Of a stretch of 21,923 bases of DNA, positions 1,058 through 21,923 are shown in pieces (position 1 is the first letter of the stretch; each line of letters begins with the position of its first letter). The stretch spans positions 1 through 21,923 of IMG/VR virus record IMGVR_UViG_3300021963_000736. One strand, given 5' to 3'. Source of the stretch: a virus. The position numbers were made by a program, and so were the translations under genes. The notes under the pieces were generated by a model. The model was not told the origin of the DNA and ran no database searches. It saw only the letters and a program-made list of their open reading frames with translations.

Positions 1058-1092
1058 AACCAAGACCTCCTGTTTAAAGATTACTAACCGCG

Positions 1093-1165
1093 CCTGCCGA
1101 GCCGCGCCTTGCCTTTCCTCAACTCACCTTGTCATGCCTGCCTTGCCTCGCCAAGCCGTGTCGCA
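1093..1165. repeat. C-rich CCNNG array, block 1
   Basis: This intergenic stretch between two minus-strand genes repeats the pattern of the larger array further on: a CCTG unit followed by five-base CCNNG units. Two CCTGCC phase-reset points lie at 1093 and 1137, exactly 44 bases apart. The pattern fades after about 1165 into ordinary A/T-richer sequence before the next gene. Both strands are largely free of stop codons here, but no start with a good ribosome site is present, so I treat it as non-coding. Confidence 0.7.
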
Positions 1166-1709: not shown

Positions 1710-1743
1710 TATGTAAGTCCTCTTTGTTATTAGGTTACCCAAG

Positions 1744-1915
1744 CCTGCCATGCCTGGCCTTGCCGTGCCTCTTCGGGCCTGGCCATGCCTGCCAAGTCCG
1801 TGCCTTGCTCCGCCGCGACCCGCCGGGCCTGCCGGGCCATACAGAGCCTTGCCATACCACGCCTTGCCTGCCGCGCTTTTACCAGCCGCACCATAACGAG
1901 CCGCGCCTTACTTTT
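1744..1915. repeat. C-rich CCNNG array, block 2
   Basis: Four CCTGCC phase-reset points lie at 1744, 1788, 1828 and 1867, giving intervals of 44, 40 and 39. The 40 can be read as a 39 with one inserted base. Between them run five-base CCNNG units with variable middle bases. The last unit decays toward the tRNA gene that begins at 1926. The block lies between a small basic gene and the tRNA, in what is otherwise a spacer. I see no gene in it: frames on both strands are open only because the five-base unit rarely makes a stop. Confidence 0.8.
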
Positions 1916-1925
1916 GAAACTATAT

Positions 1926-1997
1926 TGGGCCACCTCGGATTCGAACCAAGAACCAAGGAATTATGAGTTCCCTGCTCTGCCTTTGAGCTAGTGGCCC
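1926..1997 (-). tRNA. tRNA with CAU anticodon (Met or lysidine-type Ile)
   Basis: The minus strand folds into a full 72-base cloverleaf. The acceptor stem is GGGCCAC/GTGGCCC with discriminator A, the D stem GCTC/GAGC, the anticodon stem GGGAA/TTCCT and the T arm CTTGG-TTCGAAT-CCGAG. The anticodon loop is CTCATAA, giving CAU. The 1-72 pair is G-C, so it is not an initiator tRNA. Elongator Met and lysidine-modified Ile2 both use this loop and cannot be separated by eye. The 3' CCA is not encoded. The gene interrupts the C-rich repeat array, with block 2 on one side and block 3 on the other. Confidence 0.93.
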
Positions 1998-2006
1998 TAT
2001 GAGTTG

Positions 2007-2660
2007 CCTGCCTCGCCTCGCCGGGCTTCGCCCTATCTCGCCATGCCACGCCTGCCAAGCCACGCCATGACTCGCCGCGACGTGTCTAACCTAGCCTGCC
2101 GAGCCCAGCCTCGCCGAGCCTTGCCTTACCGAGCCTGCCGTGCCACGTCTCACCTATTCTTGCCCCGACATGCCTGCCGCGCCTCTCCCGAACGGGCCTC
2201 ACCATGCCTAGCCTGCCAAGCCGATCGCAGCCGGACCGCGCCGCGCCTCGCCTGCCGCTCCTCGCCGCGCCTCACCTCGCCTAGCCGTGCCTGCCGTGCC
2301 TTGCCTGGACCTGCCCCTCCAAACCGTGCCCCGCCTAGCCTGCCTCGCCACGCTCTGCCGAGCCTGGCCCTACCGAGCCCCGCCTGCCTCGCGTTGCCAT
2401 GCCGCTCCATTACAAACCCGGCCGTGCCTGCCATACCTCGCCGAGACAGACCTTGCCGAGCCGCACCGCGCCTGCCGCGCCGAACCTCGGCTGACCTCGG
2501 CTTACCGTGCCTGCCTCGCCTCGCCAGGACCAGCCTTGCCTGACCGTGCCTGCCGCTCCTCACCACGCCTCGCCGAACCTGGCCCAGCCTAGCCTGCCTT
2601 GCCACGCTCTGCCTAGCCGGGCCATACCTCGCCAATCCTGCCGCGCCCTGCCTTGCCTTA
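2007..2660. repeat. C-rich CCNNG array, block 3 (16 units)
   Basis: This stretch is built from five-base CCNNG units in which CC and G are favoured and the middle two bases vary. Every 7 to 9 units a shorter CCTG unit resets the phase. Reset points lie at 2007, 2051, 2095, 2134, 2173, 2212, 2251, 2290, 2339, 2383, 2427, 2471, 2510, 2549, 2593 and 2637. The 15 intervals are seven of 39, seven of 44 and one of 49 bases, all 5n-1, with mean 42.0. On the strand of the flanking genes the pattern is (CNNGG)n-CAGG. Because 44 is not a multiple of three, no protein frame is kept from unit to unit. Open frames on both strands are by-products of the scarcity of stops, so I call no gene here. Confidence 0.9.
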
Positions 2661-2680
2661 ATTTAGCAAGTTACCTTGCC

Positions 2681-2968
2681 CTAATTTCTTCTACTTCTTT
2701 TCTTACTGCGATAGCCACTGCCGTTATATCGACCCTTTGAGTTTCTGATATAGGAGTCTTGAAGATGTCTGGAGAACTTTCCTGGAGTCCAGTAAGGTTT
2801 TCCAGCCTCCATGTTGCTATCGGTCCGTAAGAACATGTAGCACAGAACTATACTAAATAACATAAAAACGAATGACTTCAATACGATAGAGGCCACTATG
2901 CCCCCGACAATAATCCAAAAGGATATTGTTGTATTGTCATCGTTTGCCGTATATTGTTTGTAGCTCAT
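2681..2968 (-). CDS. Small membrane protein with basic tail, 95 aa
   Basis: The start is put at the ATG at 2968, two bases after the stop of the upstream gene (TAAAATG), so it is probably translated by coupling; a GTG further up would overlap that gene. Residues 14-47 are hydrophobic (ISFWIIVGGIVASIVL, then FVFMLFSIVLCYMFL) and form one long or two short membrane helices. The C-terminal half is hydrophilic and ends strongly basic (YRSKKRSRRN), so it should stay in the cytoplasm by the positive-inside rule. It ends just before array block 3. I recognise no family; a holin-like role cannot be excluded but has no direct support. Confidence 0.65.
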   Translation of the reverse strand: MSYKQYTANDDNTTISFWIIVGGIVASIVLKSFVFMLFSIVLCYMFLRTDSNMEAGKPYWTPGKFSRHLQDSYIRNSKGRYNGSGYRSKKRSRRN

Positions 2969-2969
2969 T

Positions 2970-3179
2970 TTATATAATCCCGAAGGGCCACTCACGTGAT
3001 ACACCTCTGTCCGGAGGAATGTCTCCCTCGTTAGGGCGATTATGCTCCGGGGGATAAGGAGGTTTAAGAGGATATCTTATAGAAGCCAGATTACCAATGG
3101 CCATGCGGCTAGAGGGCAGTCTTTGAGTAGTTATCAATCCACTACGCTCTAAGAATCTTCTTGGTGATCGGCTAGCCAT
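2970..3179 (-). CDS. Small Arg/Pro-rich unknown protein, 69 aa
   Basis: The ATG at 3179 has a strong AAGGGGG ribosome site five bases upstream. The product is basic at its N-terminus (MASRSPRRFLERSG) and proline-rich in the middle (YPLKPPYPPEHNRPNEGDIP), with no membrane helix, and is probably largely unstructured. It lies between a single-helix membrane protein upstream and a second membrane protein downstream. The three are spaced as one transcript. I recognise no family. Confidence 0.6.
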   Translation of the reverse strand: MASRSPRRFLERSGLITTQRLPSSRMAIGNLASIRYPLKPPYPPEHNRPNEGDIPPDRGVSREWPFGII

Positions 3180-3209
3180 AGTAACCCCCTTAAACTAACG
3201 AAATAGGCA

Positions 3210-3344
3210 TCAGAATGCAGCGTAACCAATTATGATCAGCAAAGCTACAACACAAATTATAGCAACTGGTTCCATAGAATCGGCACTGCTACATTCACTT
3301 TCTCCATATTCGTCTTCGCACCTATCCGAGATTTTGTAAAACAT
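3210..3344 (-). CDS. Single-helix membrane micro-protein, 44 aa
   Basis: The frame starts at the ATG at 3344-3342. An AGGGG ribosome site lies about eight bases upstream, inside the beginning of the divergent terminase gene. The first 25 residues are acidic and Cys-containing (MFYKISDRCEDEYGESECSS). Residues 26-44 form one hydrophobic helix (EPVAIICVVALLIIIGYAAF). The start codon shares three bases with the terminase start on the other strand. Small acidic-head, single-helix proteins are common in phages, but I cannot assign a role. Confidence 0.6.
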   Translation of the reverse strand: MFYKISDRCEDEYGESECSSADSMEPVAIICVVALLIIIGYAAF

Positions 3345-5151
3345 GATAAATACCCCTAATCAAACGTCCAGCGCTTCTTCTAATCAAAAAGCCTTAAACG
3401 AAGTTATAACACGTATAAAGAAAGGCTCGTTTCCAAACCTCTCTTCGCTTCTACCGGCAATGCTAAACCTCGATGGAAAGCCTTATAGCCTTGAGAAACA
3501 CTATCAGTTTGAGCCTCTTTTCAATATTTATATGCCTAGACGAACCATATTGAAAACTGGTCGTCAGGTGGGTAAGAGCACGGTCATCTCCGCGCATGGA
3601 GTTATAACCTGCGCTACCGTTCCGTACTTTCGAAACCTCTATATTACTCCTTTGTTTGAGCAGGTGCGCCGCCTGTCTAGTAATTACGTAAGACCCTTCA
3701 TAGAGCAATCTCCGGTCAAATCTATTTTAATTGGCCCTGAGACCGAGAACAGCGTGCTGCAAAGAAGCTTTCGCAACAACAGCATGATGCAGTTCTCATT
3801 TGCTCTACTCGACGCCGATAGAATTCGTGGTATACGGGCCGATCAGGTTATCATCGATGAAGTTCAGGATATGGATGGAGATCACATACCTGTTATTCGA
3901 GAAACCATGTCGGCCAGTGAATGGGGTAACATGAAAATCGCAGGTACCCCTAAGACCTTAGATAACACCATAGAGCGAGAATGGTTGTCGTCATCTCAAG
4001 CTGAATGGTGTATAGTATGCAGAGCTTGCAAGTACACAAACGTCTCATCGATTAATCATGACCTTATTCGCATGATTGGCCCTGTAAGAGCGGATATATC
4101 AGAGCATAGCCCTGGAACCGTTTGTGCAAAATGTAGCAAGACTATTTACCCTAAAGATGGAAGATGGATTCATAAACATCCGGAGAGAAGACTCAATTAC
4201 GCCGGATACCATATTCCTCAACCAATAATGCATATTCATTACTCTCGACCAGATAAATGGGCGGAGCTGAATGCAAAGAGAGAAGGGATGGGAAATTATA
4301 CGCACGAAAGATTCCTAAACGAAGTTTTAGGAGAAAGCTCTGGAGCAGGGCTACAGCTCGTATCACTTCTTGAGCTGCAAGCGGCATCCAACCCTGACCT
4401 TAAGAACAACCCAAGAGACCCATCCGCAAATTGTAAGGATGAGATTCTTAAAAAGTACGCTCACCGAATACTTGCAGTTGACTGGGGTGGCGGTGGTGAG
4501 AAGGGCGTAAGCCTTACCGTCCTTGCCGTCATGGGCATTACATCCACCGGTGTCATAGAGGTCATATGGTCTAAGCGCCTTCTCACTCCTCATGACCACA
4601 TGGCTGAAGCTGCAGAGTGCCTTAAGATTCATCGCATGTTTAAATGCGAGTTTATAACTCATGACTTCTCTGGAGCGGGCGTAGTCCGAGAAACTGTTTT
4701 AGTTCAATCGGGAATATCGCCTACTCAACTGCTACCTGTACAGTACGTAAGAGCAGCCAGCAAAGGTATGTTTACTTACATACCGTCAGCGCCCGCTCAC
4801 CCCAGGGCTCATTACAGAGCCGATAAGACACGAAGCTTACTAACCACATGCTCAGCCATACGCACTAAGAAGCTTAGATTCTTTGCCTATGACTACGTTA
4901 GCTCAGAAGACCCGGGCCTTATTCAAGACTTTCTAGCCTTGATTGAAAGCAAAGCCACTACAGCGGCTGGGTCTGACATATACACTATTCAGAGAAACCC
5001 AGCCTTATCCGATGACTTTGCTCAGTCGGTTAACATAGGCTGCTTATGCCTGTGGCATATGACTGGAAGATGGCCTGACTTTAAAACAGATAGATACTCT
5101 GTAACTAGAGAGCAAGCTATGGAAACTGGAATGGGTGGATGGAACACCTAG
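3343..5151 (+). CDS. terL: Terminase large subunit (packaging ATPase-nuclease)
   Basis: This is the motor that cuts and pumps phage DNA into the prohead. The 602-residue product has a Walker A loop (GRQVGKST, 73-80), a Walker B strand with catalytic Glu (VIIDEVQD, 169-176) and a coupling motif (AGTPKT, 200-205). The C-terminal nuclease shows its acidic residues in VDWGGGG (D380), THDFSG (D441) and SDDFAQSV (D557/D558). A Cys-rich insert between the domains (C223, C226, C229, C261, C264) looks like a zinc ribbon, as in some lambda-type terminases. The ribosome site is weak (CGAGAT), and the ATG shares bases with a minus-strand start. The stop overlaps the primase-like gene's stop in CTAG. No small terminase subunit is recognisable nearby. 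Confidence 0.95.
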   Translation: MINTPNQTSSASSNQKALNEVITRIKKGSFPNLSSLLPAMLNLDGKPYSLEKHYQFEPLFNIYMPRRTILKTGRQVGKSTVISAHGVITCATVPYFRNLYITPLFEQVRRLSSNYVRPFIEQSPVKSILIGPETENSVLQRSFRNNSMMQFSFALLDADRIRGIRADQVIIDEVQDMDGDHIPVIRETMSASEWGNMKIAGTPKTLDNTIEREWLSSSQAEWCIVCRACKYTNVSSINHDLIRMIGPVRADISEHSPGTVCAKCSKTIYPKDGRWIHKHPERRLNYAGYHIPQPIMHIHYSRPDKWAELNAKREGMGNYTHERFLNEVLGESSGAGLQLVSLLELQAASNPDLKNNPRDPSANCKDEILKKYAHRILAVDWGGGGEKGVSLTVLAVMGITSTGVIEVIWSKRLLTPHDHMAEAAECLKIHRMFKCEFITHDFSGAGVVRETVLVQSGISPTQLLPVQYVRAASKGMFTYIPSAPAHPRAHYRADKTRSLLTTCSAIRTKKLRFFAYDYVSSEDPGLIQDFLALIESKATTAAGSDIYTIQRNPALSDDFAQSVNIGCLCLWHMTGRWPDFKTDRYSVTREQAMETGMGGWNT

Positions 5152-7631: not shown

Positions 7632-8763
7632 GATAATTGACCAATCTAACGATGGATCCGGCGTAGGATTACACAGCATGACCAAGCTTTACGCCGTTCC
7701 AGAGTTTGTAAAATCAGCCTCTGCTTCATCTATTACTGGGCAGGGTGAAGACCTTCCACCTAATGTCTACGGCGATACTAGAAGCTTAAAGTTCCCATGC
7801 CATAGCTCACCAGCCACTTACGTATCCATGGCTTACTTTTTAGACCAAGAGAAGAGTTTTGGCAAGATCGCTTCAGCCATTAAGGCAAGAATCCTACGAT
7901 CAGCTGACTACTTTGGAATAAGAGGCAGCATAGACGAACTCATGGCTAAGCACGCTGCTGCTCAGTCCCATTCAGAAGAAGACCTTAACGACTCTGACTT
8001 TGCCATGGTGGTTAAGTTCGAGACCGGTAATAAGTCAAGAAGCTACCCACTAAGGAATGAAGACGAAGTTAAAGCCGCTGCAAGTTGGATTGAAAAGTTT
8101 GCAGAAGACCTCAACTTCCATGACCGTAAAGTTATTGCTTCTAAGATATTAGATAAAGCCGCCGAACTTGGCGCCAACCTACCTAACTCTGAAACTCTAA
8201 ATAAGTACGCGGCCAACGGACTAGTGTCTAGGGTTAAGGTCGCTAATATGTTGTTTGATAGAGCCAAGGCTCTTAAGATGCTAAACAAAGATTCAAATGT
8301 GCAAGAGCTTCTGGCAAAGACTGCACAGAAGGTATTACAGGACAAAGGCTCCGACATGGACAAAGCCGCCTCTATAATCGACTCTGTAGATAAGACCTAC
8401 AAACTTAAGTCGCTTGGCAATGCCTCTGACCTATACTCTTTGTCTATTAAGCAAGCATCCGATATGCTTAGCGATAACGTTCAGCTAACCAACGGTTCTG
8501 TGTATAAAAAAGCCGAGCTGGATAATATTAATCTCGATGAGATTAAGGGAGTCTTCGGAGAAGACTTCGCAGATAGGGTATCCAGCGGCGGCTTGTTTGT
8601 CGATTCTGAGAAGCTAGCGGAAGAGCTGGCTACTTTCCCTAGGAATGACGCTAACCTATTTGATAAGCTCGTAGGCAGTCTTGGAGTTAAGACGGCCTAC
8701 AAGCAAGCTAGCGGCAACCCTATAAGGGTCGAAGACTATTTAGCAGGTACTAGCCTCAGCTAG
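7630..8763 (+). CDS. Unknown phage protein, 377 aa, helical
   Basis: The ATG at 7630 has a GGAG ribosome site eight bases upstream, located inside the start of the divergent primase-like gene, and shares CATG with that gene's start. The product has no signal peptide, membrane helix or metal motif. The N-terminal 60 residues are mixed (YAVPEFVKSASASS). The rest is Ala/Lys/Leu/Asp-rich and helical (e.g. AAASWIEKFAEDLNFHDRKV and DKAAELGANLPNSETLNKY). It ends YLAGTSLS and overlaps the VWA gene's 3' end by 24 bases tail to tail. It shares the terminase's strand, so a virion or assembly role is possible, but I recognise no family. Confidence 0.8.
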   Translation: MIIDQSNDGSGVGLHSMTKLYAVPEFVKSASASSITGQGEDLPPNVYGDTRSLKFPCHSSPATYVSMAYFLDQEKSFGKIASAIKARILRSADYFGIRGSIDELMAKHAAAQSHSEEDLNDSDFAMVVKFETGNKSRSYPLRNEDEVKAAASWIEKFAEDLNFHDRKVIASKILDKAAELGANLPNSETLNKYAANGLVSRVKVANMLFDRAKALKMLNKDSNVQELLAKTAQKVLQDKGSDMDKAASIIDSVDKTYKLKSLGNASDLYSLSIKQASDMLSDNVQLTNGSVYKKAELDNINLDEIKGVFGEDFADRVSSGGLFVDSEKLAEELATFPRNDANLFDKLVGSLGVKTAYKQASGNPIRVEDYLAGTSLS

Positions 8764-10677
8764 CTGATTAAAGAACCTACCGATGAAGCCAATACTGCTC
8801 ATGACATCTTGAATCACAATACTATTACCAGCTCCGTACATAGTGTCACCGAGAGACTGAGGGTAGGCCCCAGCAACACCTATCGCATATACCTCTACGC
8901 CAAACCGTGCCCTAGCGTCCTTCCTGCAAAGGTTCACATGCTGAAAAGCTGATTCATAACCGTAGCCATTAGCATTGGGCTGCCCGTCGCTAATTACGAC
9001 CATGATCCTTCTCTTATAATCTTCCCTTGTATAAGCTAGGTGCTTTGAAGCATGCCATATTGCAAACCCATCGGTGTTGTTTGCATGGTGAGTTATCTTC
9101 AAGATGTTATGAAGATCCTGAATGCCAGGCTTTGTCTCGTCGTAGATCTGGCGAAGAGTAAGCTCATTGAACGTCGGAACGCCCAACACTTTGCCCTCTG
9201 CAGACCCCTCCTGAGCACTAAAGCCAGTGACCGATAAATCGAGCCCACTAACACCCTTGCACAGCTTTGCCAGAATATAACCGACCTCAGCTGCGTCTTG
9301 GATTTTATTACCACTCATAGACCCCGACTGGTCTATGAGCAGGTTGACTGCAATCTTATCGCTTCTATGCGAGCTATTCCTATAGAAGACCTTATCGCTA
9401 TCCATAGCCACTTTATAGATGCTCCCTAGATGCAGCTTACCGGACGGATTGCCATAAACCTTTCTAGTGAGTTCCTTAGAGCTAAACGCAAAGCTCTCAG
9501 CCAGCCTCTCTGCAGAGTTGTCCATTCTGCGAATTCGCCCTAAATCCCAGTGCTTAGATAAAACTTCATCTGGCTTGCACCAGACTGGTTTCATAGTTAT
9601 AGAGTTCTCATCCCGACCATGAAAAGGAACAGCAGGAGCCGACCCCGCTTCTTTCGCCTCTTTTCCGGAAGTACCCGACAAGCTCTCTATATCTTTTGCC
9701 GTTAAGCATTTTTTGTTTATAACCGGCACTGTACCAAATAAACCTTCATCTACTCCGAGGAACTTTACGTCCCAAGTAGACAGAGGGTTATCGCCTAAGT
9801 CAGCCCCAAACGCCTGCTCCACCGTCGAAGATCCTTCTTCATCGTAGAATTCTTCTTCTTTCTCATCATATAAGTCCTTTATGCGTTTCACTACCTCTAC
9901 GCAGAATTTCCATCGCTCCTTAGGAGTTCTTATAGAAGCCAGCCCATCGGCTATCATCTGCTTACCGTCGTTATAGCAGGATGGAATTCTTATAGGATCA
10001 TGCGAGTTGTATAAATTCCAAGCTAAGCCTTTGATAAAAGCCTTGCTGGATGTACCCTTACCCTCCATTCCATTCTTGCTACTTAGCATTCTTTTCATAG
10101 CCGTTGCGGCATTGTTTGACTGCATTCGAGCATATGTATCAAAGTATGGCTTGAAGCCAACCCACTCAGACACAATACTGCTTCGAGCAACAGCAAACTC
10201 AATCGCCGTCCATAGAGATTTTACCTCTAGGTCCTGCTCCGCCAAAAACTTTCTATGGGTATTAGCATCTATTTGGCGCTTCAGCTGCGCCGCTAGCATA
10301 ACCTGCCCGCAGAGGGCATCTGTAGCGTCTCCAACCCCTTCTTTATTTTTTGCAGAAATCAAATCATCCGGCGAAACAAATATCGTGTTGTTACTCGGCT
10401 TGTTAACATCCGTGCCGGACGAGAACTTAACATTCAATAGACGTTCGTTTTCTTCACCGCTATTGAGAACCACGTTCGCACTACGAACGATTGCCCTTAG
10501 CGTGTCTTCGCATAGCTTCTTATTTACATCCGCTTTAGGCCGATCTAAGATGCCCTTGTATAAAGAATCGTAGGAATCTTCGAAGTCGTCAAAATTATAC
10601 CAACTATTCCAATAATTCTTTTTCTCAGTCTTTCCTACTTTATATATAGGATCCTTGTACCAGTCACTGTAGCTCAT
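8740..10677 (-). CDS. CobT-like VWA-domain protein, partner of AAA+ ATPase
   Basis: The 645-residue product ends in a von Willebrand A domain with a metal-ion site DQSGSMSG (D449, S451, S453) and a later VVISDGQPNANGYG segment. Just before it, a region (RKVYGNPSGKLHLGSIYKVA, then DKVFYRN) resembles the CobT linker. The N-terminal 300 residues include an acidic stretch (DEKEEEFYDEE, about 271-281). The CobS/MoxR-type ATPase gene lies immediately upstream. Such pairs form chelatase-like machines that insert metals or remodel proteins; phage copies are often labelled CobT without proof of cobalamin synthesis. AAGGAG precedes the start, and a hairpin and candidate promoter lie just upstream. It is the last gene of its operon. 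Confidence 0.85.
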   Translation of the reverse strand: MSYSDWYKDPIYKVGKTEKKNYWNSWYNFDDFEDSYDSLYKGILDRPKADVNKKLCEDTLRAIVRSANVVLNSGEENERLLNVKFSSGTDVNKPSNNTIFVSPDDLISAKNKEGVGDATDALCGQVMLAAQLKRQIDANTHRKFLAEQDLEVKSLWTAIEFAVARSSIVSEWVGFKPYFDTYARMQSNNAATAMKRMLSSKNGMEGKGTSSKAFIKGLAWNLYNSHDPIRIPSCYNDGKQMIADGLASIRTPKERWKFCVEVVKRIKDLYDEKEEEFYDEEGSSTVEQAFGADLGDNPLSTWDVKFLGVDEGLFGTVPVINKKCLTAKDIESLSGTSGKEAKEAGSAPAVPFHGRDENSITMKPVWCKPDEVLSKHWDLGRIRRMDNSAERLAESFAFSSKELTRKVYGNPSGKLHLGSIYKVAMDSDKVFYRNSSHRSDKIAVNLLIDQSGSMSGNKIQDAAEVGYILAKLCKGVSGLDLSVTGFSAQEGSAEGKVLGVPTFNELTLRQIYDETKPGIQDLHNILKITHHANNTDGFAIWHASKHLAYTREDYKRRIMVVISDGQPNANGYGYESAFQHVNLCRKDARARFGVEVYAIGVAGAYPQSLGDTMYGAGNSIVIQDVMSSIGFIGRFFNQLAEASTC

Positions 10678-10694
10678 AACATCTCCTTAATAAT

Positions 10695-10720
10695 AAGACG
10701 GCCTAGTGAAAGGCCGTCTT
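10695..10720. terminator. Hairpin between AAA+ ATPase and VWA genes
   Basis: A perfect 10-base-pair inverted repeat (AAGACGGCCT / AGGCCGTCTT) with a 6-base loop can extend through A/T bases on both sides. It sits in the only sizeable gap between the paired ATPase and VWA genes. The U-tract on the minus transcript is weak (UUAUUAUU), so it may attenuate rather than stop transcription. Confidence 0.65.
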
Positions 10721-10721
10721 T

Positions 10722-10730
10722 ATTATAACA
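10722..10730 (-). promoter_or_regulatory. Candidate extended -10 promoter for the VWA gene
   Basis: The minus strand reads TGTTATAAT, a perfect extended -10 (TGn plus TATAAT), with no clear -35. The predicted start near 10715 falls inside the first arm of the adjacent hairpin, so transcripts starting here would lack that arm. The AT-rich setting means a chance match is possible. Confidence 0.4.
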
Positions 10731-10733
10731 TAG

Positions 10734-11696
10734 TTAAAGGTTAATAAGGTCGCTGGCTGTTGCCATCTTGCCGTCGGTGCCGTCAAGGCTACCGAACTTA
10801 CCCTTCAGCATTTCCAATACCTGTGCTCGCTCACTATCGGCACCTGTACCGCCTGAAAAGTGATTTACTAAAGAAAAGCGTAACATACTAGCTCCGCCTT
10901 CAAGAAACTTTTCAGCTGCGTTGAGAAGCTCGCGCGTTGATAGAGTATTCTCAAAGATGCTATCAATACCCTTCGACTTTCGACGAATTGTGTCAGCGAT
11001 ATCCACAAGTTTCAGAGCTGATTCTGGGTCGATCCCTGTGCGGACAATAAGCAAGTTGACCTCTGCATCTTTTGGAAGATACGTTAGCTCAACCACGTCG
11101 CCGAAGCGAGCACGAAGCGCACGGTCGAGCTTGGTGGTGCCTGTGTAGGCGGCACCTTGATTCATTGTGGCGAACCAAACGGTACCACCGCCGTCTTGGA
11201 GGATGGGGCTAGGACGACGATCTTGAATCAAGCATGACCTTGATGTATCTAAAAGAGGCAGCAGTACATTCAAGACTTCGGGAGCGGCCCGATTTATTTC
11301 GTCTAGTAATATCACATGATTGCCTTCAGACACTACTCGGTCAAATGGGGTCTCCTCCCATGAGATAGAGCCGGCTTGAATATCCAAACGGCCGAACCAC
11401 TTCTCGGCTTCGGTGATGTTTGAGCAGTCCATTTTTAACAGAGACAGACCTTTGCGAGCAGCGAACTGCTTCGCGAACTCAGTTTTCCCGCAACCAGTCG
11501 GTCCGACGATCATGACATTCTGGGACTTCTTTTGGCGAGCCCTATCAATCACATCGCAGAATACTGCGCCGTCTGGAGGCATTACATAGGATGGATCCAC
11601 CTCATATTGAGCAGCACCGGTTCGCTGATTATATTTTACCGCTGCAGCGGACATATCAACTACTACGGTCTTTGAAGATTTAGCTTCTTTAATCAT
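10734..11696 (-). CDS. CobS/MoxR-type AAA+ ATPase
   Basis: The product (about 320 residues) is a AAA+ ATPase. Counted from the second Met, it has Walker A GPTGCGKT (65-72), Walker B ILLDEINRA (129-137), a sensor-1-like WFATMNQG strand and an arginine-rich ALRARFGD segment typical of the MoxR/CobS group. I prefer the ATG at 11696, with GAGG nine bases upstream; the ATG at 11702 is too close to it. The start overlaps the upstream gene by 8 bases. The downstream gene encodes the VWA partner, so the two probably act as one complex driven by ATP. Several long stretches look richer in G/C than the neighbours, hinting at separate acquisition. Confidence 0.9.
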   Translation of the reverse strand: MIKEAKSSKTVVVDMSAAAVKYNQRTGAAQYEVDPSYVMPPDGAVFCDVIDRARQKKSQNVMIVGPTGCGKTEFAKQFAARKGLSLLKMDCSNITEAEKWFGRLDIQAGSISWEETPFDRVVSEGNHVILLDEINRAAPEVLNVLLPLLDTSRSCLIQDRRPSPILQDGGGTVWFATMNQGAAYTGTTKLDRALRARFGDVVELTYLPKDAEVNLLIVRTGIDPESALKLVDIADTIRRKSKGIDSIFENTLSTRELLNAAEKFLEGGASMLRFSLVNHFSGGTGADSERAQVLEMLKGKFGSLDGTDGKMATASDLINL

Positions 11697-12018
11697 TTTC
11701 ATATTCCTCTTGAAATTCTCCGAACATATCTACGTACTCCTGCTCCGCTACATCGATAGCGAAATGTTTCAGGGGTAGTAGATTTTTTAAATCTGAAGAT
11801 TCTTTATCTATCTCTGAGTCTAAAACGCAGAGTAATCTATAATGCCTATCCGACTCTTTTTTAGATATGCAGTCGGTAGGTATTACCTTTATAATCTCCC
11901 AGCTGTATTCCTGCTTTAAACCTATAAGGCTTTTGTACTCCAGCGTTGATAATTTCTTATCATACTTTCTACGAAGGGCATCTTTCTGTAGCTCTATTAC
12001 TTTCTCGTTGTTCAACAC
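11689..12018 (-). CDS. Unknown acidic protein, 109 aa, GTG start
   Basis: The frame begins with GTG at 12018, preceded by AAGGAGG at five to seven bases, so a non-ATG start is well supported. The product is helical and charged. It has a basic N-terminal third (LQKDALRRKYDKKL), a central CVLDSEIDKE segment and an acidic end (MFGEFQEEYEND). It lies between two operon members and its stop overlaps the start of the AAA+ ATPase, implying coupled translation with it. It could be an adaptor for that ATPase, but this is inference from position only. Confidence 0.7.
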   Translation of the reverse strand: MLNNEKVIELQKDALRRKYDKKLSTLEYKSLIGLKQEYSWEIIKVIPTDCISKKESDRHYRLLCVLDSEIDKESSDLKNLLPLKHFAIDVAEQEYVDMFGEFQEEYEND

Positions 12019-21541: not shown

Positions 21542-21923
21542 TATAAACCTCCAAAGTTAGTTGCTAAGTAAATTGTGTCTGCTGTTCCTTGGTTTCCTTG
21601 CGTTCCTTGCGTTCCTTGATTTCCTTGGTTTCCTTGCGTTCCTTGCGTTCCTTGATTTCCTTGGTTTCCTTGGTTTCCTTGCGTTCCTTGCGTTCCTTGA
21701 TTTCCTTGGTTTCCTTGCGTTCCTTGCGTTCCTTGATTTCCTTGGTTTCCTTGCGTTCCTTGCGTTCCTTGATTTCCTTGAGCTCCAATAACTCCTTGGA
21801 ATCCTTGATTTCCTTGAGCTCCAATAACTCCTTGGAATCCTTGATTTCCTTGAGCTCCTACTGATCCTTGAAATCCTTGGTTTCCTTGAGCTCCTACTGA
21901 TCCTTGAAATCCTTGGTTTCCTT
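21541..21923 (-). CDS. Partial collagen-like (Gly-X-Y) tail fibre protein, C-terminal part
   Basis: The frame runs in from the window edge, so its N-terminus is missing, and stops at TAA 21543-21541. The visible part is about 110 residues of perfect Gly-X-Y triplets (GNQ, GTQ, GFQ, GVI, GSV, GAQ), followed by a short end (GTADTIYLATNFGGL). Collagen-like segments form rigid triple helices in phage fibres and tail shafts. Its stop overlaps the next start (TAATG), giving tight coupling. An opposite-frame minus-strand Lys/Glu-rich reading of the same bases is only a shadow of the nine-base repeat. Confidence 0.9.
   Translation of the reverse strand, partial: GNQGFQGSVGAQGNQGFQGSVGAQGNQGFQGVIGAQGNQGFQGVIGAQGNQGTQGTQGNQGNQGTQGTQGNQGNQGTQGTQGNQGNQGNQGTQGTQGNQGNQGTQGTQGNQGTADTIYLATNFGGL
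21591..21923. repeat. 36-bp tandem repeats coding the collagen-like shaft
   Basis: Nine 36-bp units lie at 21591, 21627, 21672, 21708, 21744, 21780, 21816, 21852 and 21888, with one extra nine-base GNQ triplet at 21663. Units 1-5 code GNQ-GTQ-GTQ-GNQ variants, units 6-7 carry GVI and units 8-9 carry GSV. Identical adjacent copies suggest recent slippage. The window ends exactly on a unit boundary, which may reflect an assembly break at the repeat. Confidence 0.9.

Follow-up and report, generated by a model that had tools for sequence, protein, structure and literature searches.

A phase-reset array of YNNGG units in a large phage and its probable identity as a VIPR guide-RNA array

The closest described relatives of the repeat analyzed here belong to VIPR (Viral Interference Programmable Repeat), in which a phage-encoded ancestral RAMP protein, Vipr, operates with guide RNAs termed vrRNAs (preprint 2026, PMC13142463). 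According to the accessible text of this preprint, a vrRNA consists of 9-16 YNNGG repeats with a conserved GGY and a hypervariable NN; Vipr subunits sit on GGY, the NN pairs read double-stranded DNA with one base skipped per unit, and the function of the complex is the transcriptional silencing of rival elements (PMC13142463). The same source proposes VIPR both as the ancestor of CRISPR effectors and as a weapon between phages, lists the accessory genes vap1-6, and describes a structured 3' tail on the vrRNA in some clades, including that of SUSP1, alongside other array layouts elsewhere; 'staggered arrays with overlapping vrRNAs' are mentioned as well (PMC13142463).

Here, we examine a stretch of viral DNA of 21,923 bp (referred to in its entirety as the window) for which an initial annotation had noted a two-level repeat and had known of no described system with this layout, a statement now overtaken by the YNNGG guide RNAs of the 2026 preprint (PMC13142463). 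We regard it as highly probable (about 0.93) that the feature is a VIPR guide-RNA (vrRNA) array of a large phage. Computed here in favor of this reading are the anatomy of the array, the match between its strand and that of vipr, the assignment of a sister-phage protein to the Vipr family together with its predicted fold, and the turnover of whole modules; the putative link of the window array to vipr runs through sister contigs.

Architecture of the array

The elements of the window that matter for the argument are the following.

1086..1160, minus strand: short array piece with two resets
1735..1905, minus strand: continuation of the array beyond the tRNA, four modules on the same lattice, one of them with a 6-nt unit
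1926..1997, minus strand: tRNA-Met gene with CAT anticodon, between the array block at 1735-1905 and the main array (ARAGORN; Rfam 63.3 bits)
2007..2657, minus strand: main vrRNA-type array, about 15 modules of (YNNGG)7-9, each with a 4-nt CAGG phase reset (CCTG on the plus strand)
2681..3004, minus strand: 107-aa ORF on the strand of the array, ending just upstream of it, without family match
3343..5151, plus strand: terminase large subunit (phrog_675), the query used to find sister genomes

The main array ends at about 2657, which refines the previously assigned end at 2660. Its 16 reset words (CCTGCC) stand at 2007, 2051, 2095, 2134, 2173, 2212, 2251, 2290, 2339, 2383, 2427, 2471, 2510, 2549, 2593 and 2637; an additional CCTGCC at 2310 keeps the phase and is no reset. 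Recomputation of the 15 reset-to-reset intervals exactly reproduced the values of the initial annotation, all of the form 5n-1 (39 bp seven times, 44 bp seven times and 49 bp once; sum 630, mean 42.0), and the autocorrelation that it had recommended showed the anticipated excess at lags 5, 39 and 44 (0.525, 0.596 and 0.557, respectively, versus 0.32 ± 0.02 in shuffled sequence). Likewise, GCCNNGCC occurs 44 times in the array, versus 3.3 ± 1.8 (maximum 9) expected from 500 dinucleotide shuffles. Since the 5n-1 intervals follow from the lattice itself, the informative second-level signal is the regularity of the modules: each holds 7, 8 or 9 units, and a range this narrow never arose when the resets were placed at random among the 114 units (100,000 trials).

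The entropy across the five positions of the unit is 0.71, 0.30, 1.88, 1.89 and 1.06 bits. At 1.88-1.89 bits, the middle pair comes close to randomness, as opposed to 0.3-1.1 bits at the skeleton positions, which bears out the earlier observation of a preserved skeleton with varying middle bases. In minus-strand orientation, the array takes the form (YNNGG)7-9 plus CAGG, repeated, with a conserved GGY and a hypervariable NN. A register-tracking parser found that all of the 17 four-base steps read GGCA on this strand, and the minus strand is the meaningful strand of the array.

A CRISPR array is recognized by near-identical repeats with unique spacers between them; these are missing from this region, where the variation is spread across every five-base unit. 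Tandem-repeat calls in the array region yielded just short, low-copy rows, the tRNA was the sole Rfam match in the window, and scans for promoters and terminators returned counts at chance level. A structured RNA had been among the roles initially considered: the RNA part of this suggestion persists in the reading as a VIPR guide array, but structure in the sense of folding was rejected, given that the array folds little better than its composition predicts (z = -1.28).

Elsewhere in the window, an AAA ATPase-like gene (10734-11702, minus strand) lies adjacent to a gene with a VWA-like metal-binding motif (8740-10677, minus strand), both as judged from their translations. A collagen-like Gly-X-Y stretch (GNQGTQGTQ...), built from a 9-bp/36-bp repeat in one open frame, occupies 21564-21923 on the minus strand, where it is cut by the end of the window; it is possibly part of a tail fibre.

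Vipr in sister phages and beside related arrays

Through the terminase, we found a sister genome of 181,489 bp (IMGVR_UViG_3300032233_002657; hereafter G001), whose terminase is 96.8% identical to that of the window. G001 carries the array of the window at 51,590-52,540 and another array at 42,548-42,974. G001 is 100% identical over the tRNA and the sequence immediately flanking it, and among the lineages scanned it is in this one alone that a tRNA lies within the array. As the second array is contiguous in G001, the piece at 1086-1160 of the window has the look of an array divided by an insertion of about 570 bp.

A homologue of Vipr is encoded in G001 at 43,635-44,384 (L208:3635-4384) on the minus strand, which is the strand of the arrays. 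It is situated about 660 bp from the array at 42,548-42,974, with a 167-aa gene in between; relatives of this small gene, a candidate accessory (vap) gene, adjoin vipr in other loci. No vipr gene is present within the 21.9-kb window, itself a fragment; judged by synteny with G001, that of the window phage would lie about 6-7 kb past the left end. A third relative, the 102-kb contig G009, encodes a Vipr that is 98% identical.

For comparison, the record of Escherichia phage SUSP1 (NC_028808) holds a 195-aa gene flanked by GGT-NN tracts, which is taken to be its Vipr and belongs to phrog_4652. The G001 protein falls into the same PHROG (E 3.4e-22) and matches SUSP1 Vipr in a phmmer search (E 1.3e-7) and with an iterated profile (E 2e-48); searches of Vipr against PADLOC and Pfam gave no match. 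An AlphaFold2 model of G001 Vipr, built from a 52-sequence alignment, reached a pLDDT of 87.5. In Foldseek this model matched Csm3/Cas7 RAMPs (E 1.4e-7), and all 50 matches listed were CRISPR effector complexes or their subunits; structural matches to Csm3/Cas7-type chains extended up to Z 12.9 over 161 residues (rmsd 3.7 Å). G001 Vipr is thus predicted to have a RAMP (Cas7-like) fold.

Two further features of the G001 locus deserve mention. Upstream of vipr, a stretch on the minus strand (L208:4558-9980) holds a run of small look-alike ORFs, at least 14 in number and 51-67 aa long; each begins with MIRR, MIRK or MIRN (a ATGATAAGAA-like start), and most have a high content of Trp and Ser (W+S up to 0.36). 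Between the gene at the side of vipr and the first G001 array, an inverted repeat, CGGCTAAACCA ... TGGTTTAGCCG (L208:2975-3090, minus strand), is possibly a processing or terminator element.

The search for related arrays that the initial annotation had called for was carried out in IMG/VR with the protein-blind DNA pattern CCTG(CCNNG)5 and fetched at least 120 viral loci; together with GenBank phages, these independent contigs establish that such arrays are not confined to one assembly. By iterated profile, Vipr is encoded in 79 of the 120 pattern-fetched loci listed. As this profile was trained on the same loci, we also give the number of ORFs in them that match the single SUSP1 Vipr sequence, which is 57. 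Control loci fetched with unrelated gapped patterns encoded Vipr in 0 of 52 cases. Where an array and vipr are within 3 kb of each other, they share a strand in 113 cases and differ in 2. The layout is also present in the cluster F1 mycobacteriophages Donkeykong, Saal, Philus, BobaPhett, Zizzle, Quico, Brocalys and DRBy19 and in the cyanophage Cy-LDV1; two of these phages, Donkeykong and Cy-LDV1, were checked for Vipr, and both gave a profile match.

In Donkeykong, the profile match is gp49, annotated as a hypothetical protein and adjoining the phase-reset array. Saal gp51, Philus gp52, BobaPhett gp52 and their relatives are hypothetical proteins at the same place beside phase-reset arrays, and in several F1 phages part of the array has itself been annotated as a short hypothetical protein. 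Two distant relatives identified by their terminases (54% identity; L028 and L029, about 9167-10762) have Vipr and a weaker array of ACC-NN type near the terminase; their Vipr comes from a different branch of the Vipr tree, which raises the possibility of more than one entry of VIPR into this phage family.

These distributions bear on two rival explanations. The regular spacing and conserved skeleton would suit a DNA-level array of helix-phased sites for a phage DNA-binding protein serving packaging, partition or compaction, and the mean interval of 42 bp had been related to four helical turns. Lag 42, however, is depleted in the autocorrelation (0.215 versus 0.324), and reset spacing among relatives runs from about 34 to 74 nt, so the phasing idea lacks support. 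The arrays, moreover, co-occur with the gene of a RAMP-family protein and are locked to its strand, and this partner has a predicted fold like that of crRNA-binding effector subunits; we therefore consider a DNA-binding array highly unlikely. The second explanation, a functionless degenerate tandem repeat produced by slippage, accords with the fact that units and modules do expand and contract. Yet a low-entropy skeleton carrying near-random NN positions is unlike the drift of a duplicated unit, and the layout turns up again beside one protein family in mycobacteriophages, in a cyanophage and in many IMG/VR contigs; such a functionless repeat is hardly credible. The vrRNA array is the reading with which we proceed.

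The phase reset, module turnover and target searches

Mapped onto a Vipr tree of 76 rows, loci with at least three resets (33 in number) require 7 changes, versus 25.1 in shuffles, and 29 of these 33 are located in one supported clade of 39 (98/96). Within this clade, two loci use other words for the four-base step (GGCTGA in L195 and GGCAGC in L204), from which it follows that the register shift is conserved rather than the letters. Since the fetching pattern holds one CCTG, it guarantees a single GGCAGG in each locus, but neither its regular recurrence nor the other words. As putative punctuation, the CAGG reset extends across one Vipr clade.

The comparison with G001 reveals how the modules change. 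Positions 2660-3342 of the window are 98.2% identical in G001, and the flanks overall are 96.8-100% identical. In the arrays themselves, several modules are identical or one base apart and others have been replaced; some are present in one of the two phages only, with edges that fall at resets, and one module of the window array sits in the other array of G001. In the F1 phages, whole modules and single units have been gained and lost. Given that single modules are gained, lost and moved with their edges at resets, modules behave as the unit of turnover. A contrast between substitutions at NN and at GGY was set aside, the pairs having included non-homologous modules.

Searches for targets returned chance-level results throughout. 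When 37 single-module guides were decoded with a 1-nt skip against the collected viral loci, there was no excess over shuffled guides, and the same 37 guides found no target above chance in four related genomes, self included. Two 16-base guide patterns gave 21 and 31 matches in IMG/VR, a chance-like outcome in which no contig was matched by several guides, and a further pattern of 20 bases, derived from a long sister module, gave 0 matches in IMG/VR. All-against-all decoding of the collected arrays produced 61 exact matches (skip 1, n=8), but these include 52 loci fetched with those very patterns, so that 9 are left, within the 5-10 of shuffles. Guides of the cluster F1 mycobacteriophages likewise performed at chance level, their single genome match being an unrelated Clostridiales contig. 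These nulls speak neither for nor against a guide function. A seven-pair guide specifies 14 bases, which is not enough for searching very large collections, and the sequences searched may lack the rivals that this phage meets in its habitat.

Within the VIPR reading, a vrRNA might span two or more modules, the reset then being an internal register shift in a longer guide. The modules of the window are short (7-9 units), two of them would comprise 14-17 units and hence come near the published 9-16 (PMC13142463), and the searches with single-module guides gave no targets. Modules of relatives, on the other hand, reach 11-13 units, and the turnover of single modules at reset edges is what one functional unit would be expected to display. 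We regard the multi-module guide as possible but doubtful, and continue with the single module as the putative guide.

A putative guide format and its comparison with known systems

The data lend themselves to the following model. The array would be transcribed from the minus strand, expression of this copy being presumed, and each reset-to-reset module, (YNNGG)7-9, would represent one guide of 39-49 nt. Following the description in PMC13142463, the GGY triplets would hold successive Cas7-like RAMP subunits of Vipr along the RNA, and the NN pairs would read double-stranded DNA as NN-x-NN-x, covering 21-27 bp per module (PMC13142463). The 4-nt CAGG would break the 5-nt register and thereby mark the guide boundary. 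As a pure proposal, the embedded tRNA could provide a point at which the transcript is cleaved by RNase P and by tRNA 3' processing. The complex of Vipr and RNA would then repress genes of rival elements, presumably phages or satellites.

A bolder view, which we hold at less than even odds, may be added: phase-reset arrays might be a distinct VIPR guide format, in which a single-base register slip with a lineage-specific word cuts a continuous, tail-less transcript into guides of 7-12 units, the tRNA embedded in the array of this phage may help in the cutting, and whole guides are exchanged between arrays of sister phages. If true, guides would turn over without an adaptation module. The findings place VIPR, on the reading preferred here, in a large-phage lineage in which guides change as whole modules while the surrounding genome stays 97-100% identical, and the register reset offers a simple, visible rule for cutting such arrays into candidate guides. 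The same layout in cultured mycobacteriophages (Donkeykong, Saal and others) makes guide boundaries testable now.

As a kind of system, VIPR is already known; the tail-less phase-reset punctuation and the embedded tRNA do not appear in the accessible text of the preprint, whose 'staggered arrays' may be this very layout (PMC13142463). With VIPR the locus shares the YNNGG repeats and their GGY/NN pattern, its location on a phage, an array on the strand of vipr, a phrog_4652 Vipr (that of the sister phage) predicted to adopt a RAMP fold and, next to its gene, a small candidate accessory gene. It differs in having 7-9 repeats per reset-delimited module, as opposed to 9-16 per vrRNA (PMC13142463), and in modules that are continuous and free of a structured tail, with the 4-nt CAGG register reset between them. 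The tail has been described for some clades only (PMC13142463), and its absence is therefore no bar to membership in VIPR. Further differences are the tRNA gene inside the array and the distance of about 7 kb between vipr and the G001 array at 51,590-52,540. The SUSP1 system resembles that of the large phages in its homologous Vipr and in the GGY/NN repeats that flank the operon; its guides, however, form individual tracts that have 12-16 units and no resets, and they carry a conserved structured tail (PMC13142463). Class 1 CRISPR-Cas systems, with their Csm3/Cmr4/Cas7 RAMP effectors, are similar in the predicted effector fold and in possessing arrays of exchangeable guide units, whereas the array studied here is without CRISPR repeats and spacers and alternates hypervariable and constant positions inside every five bases.
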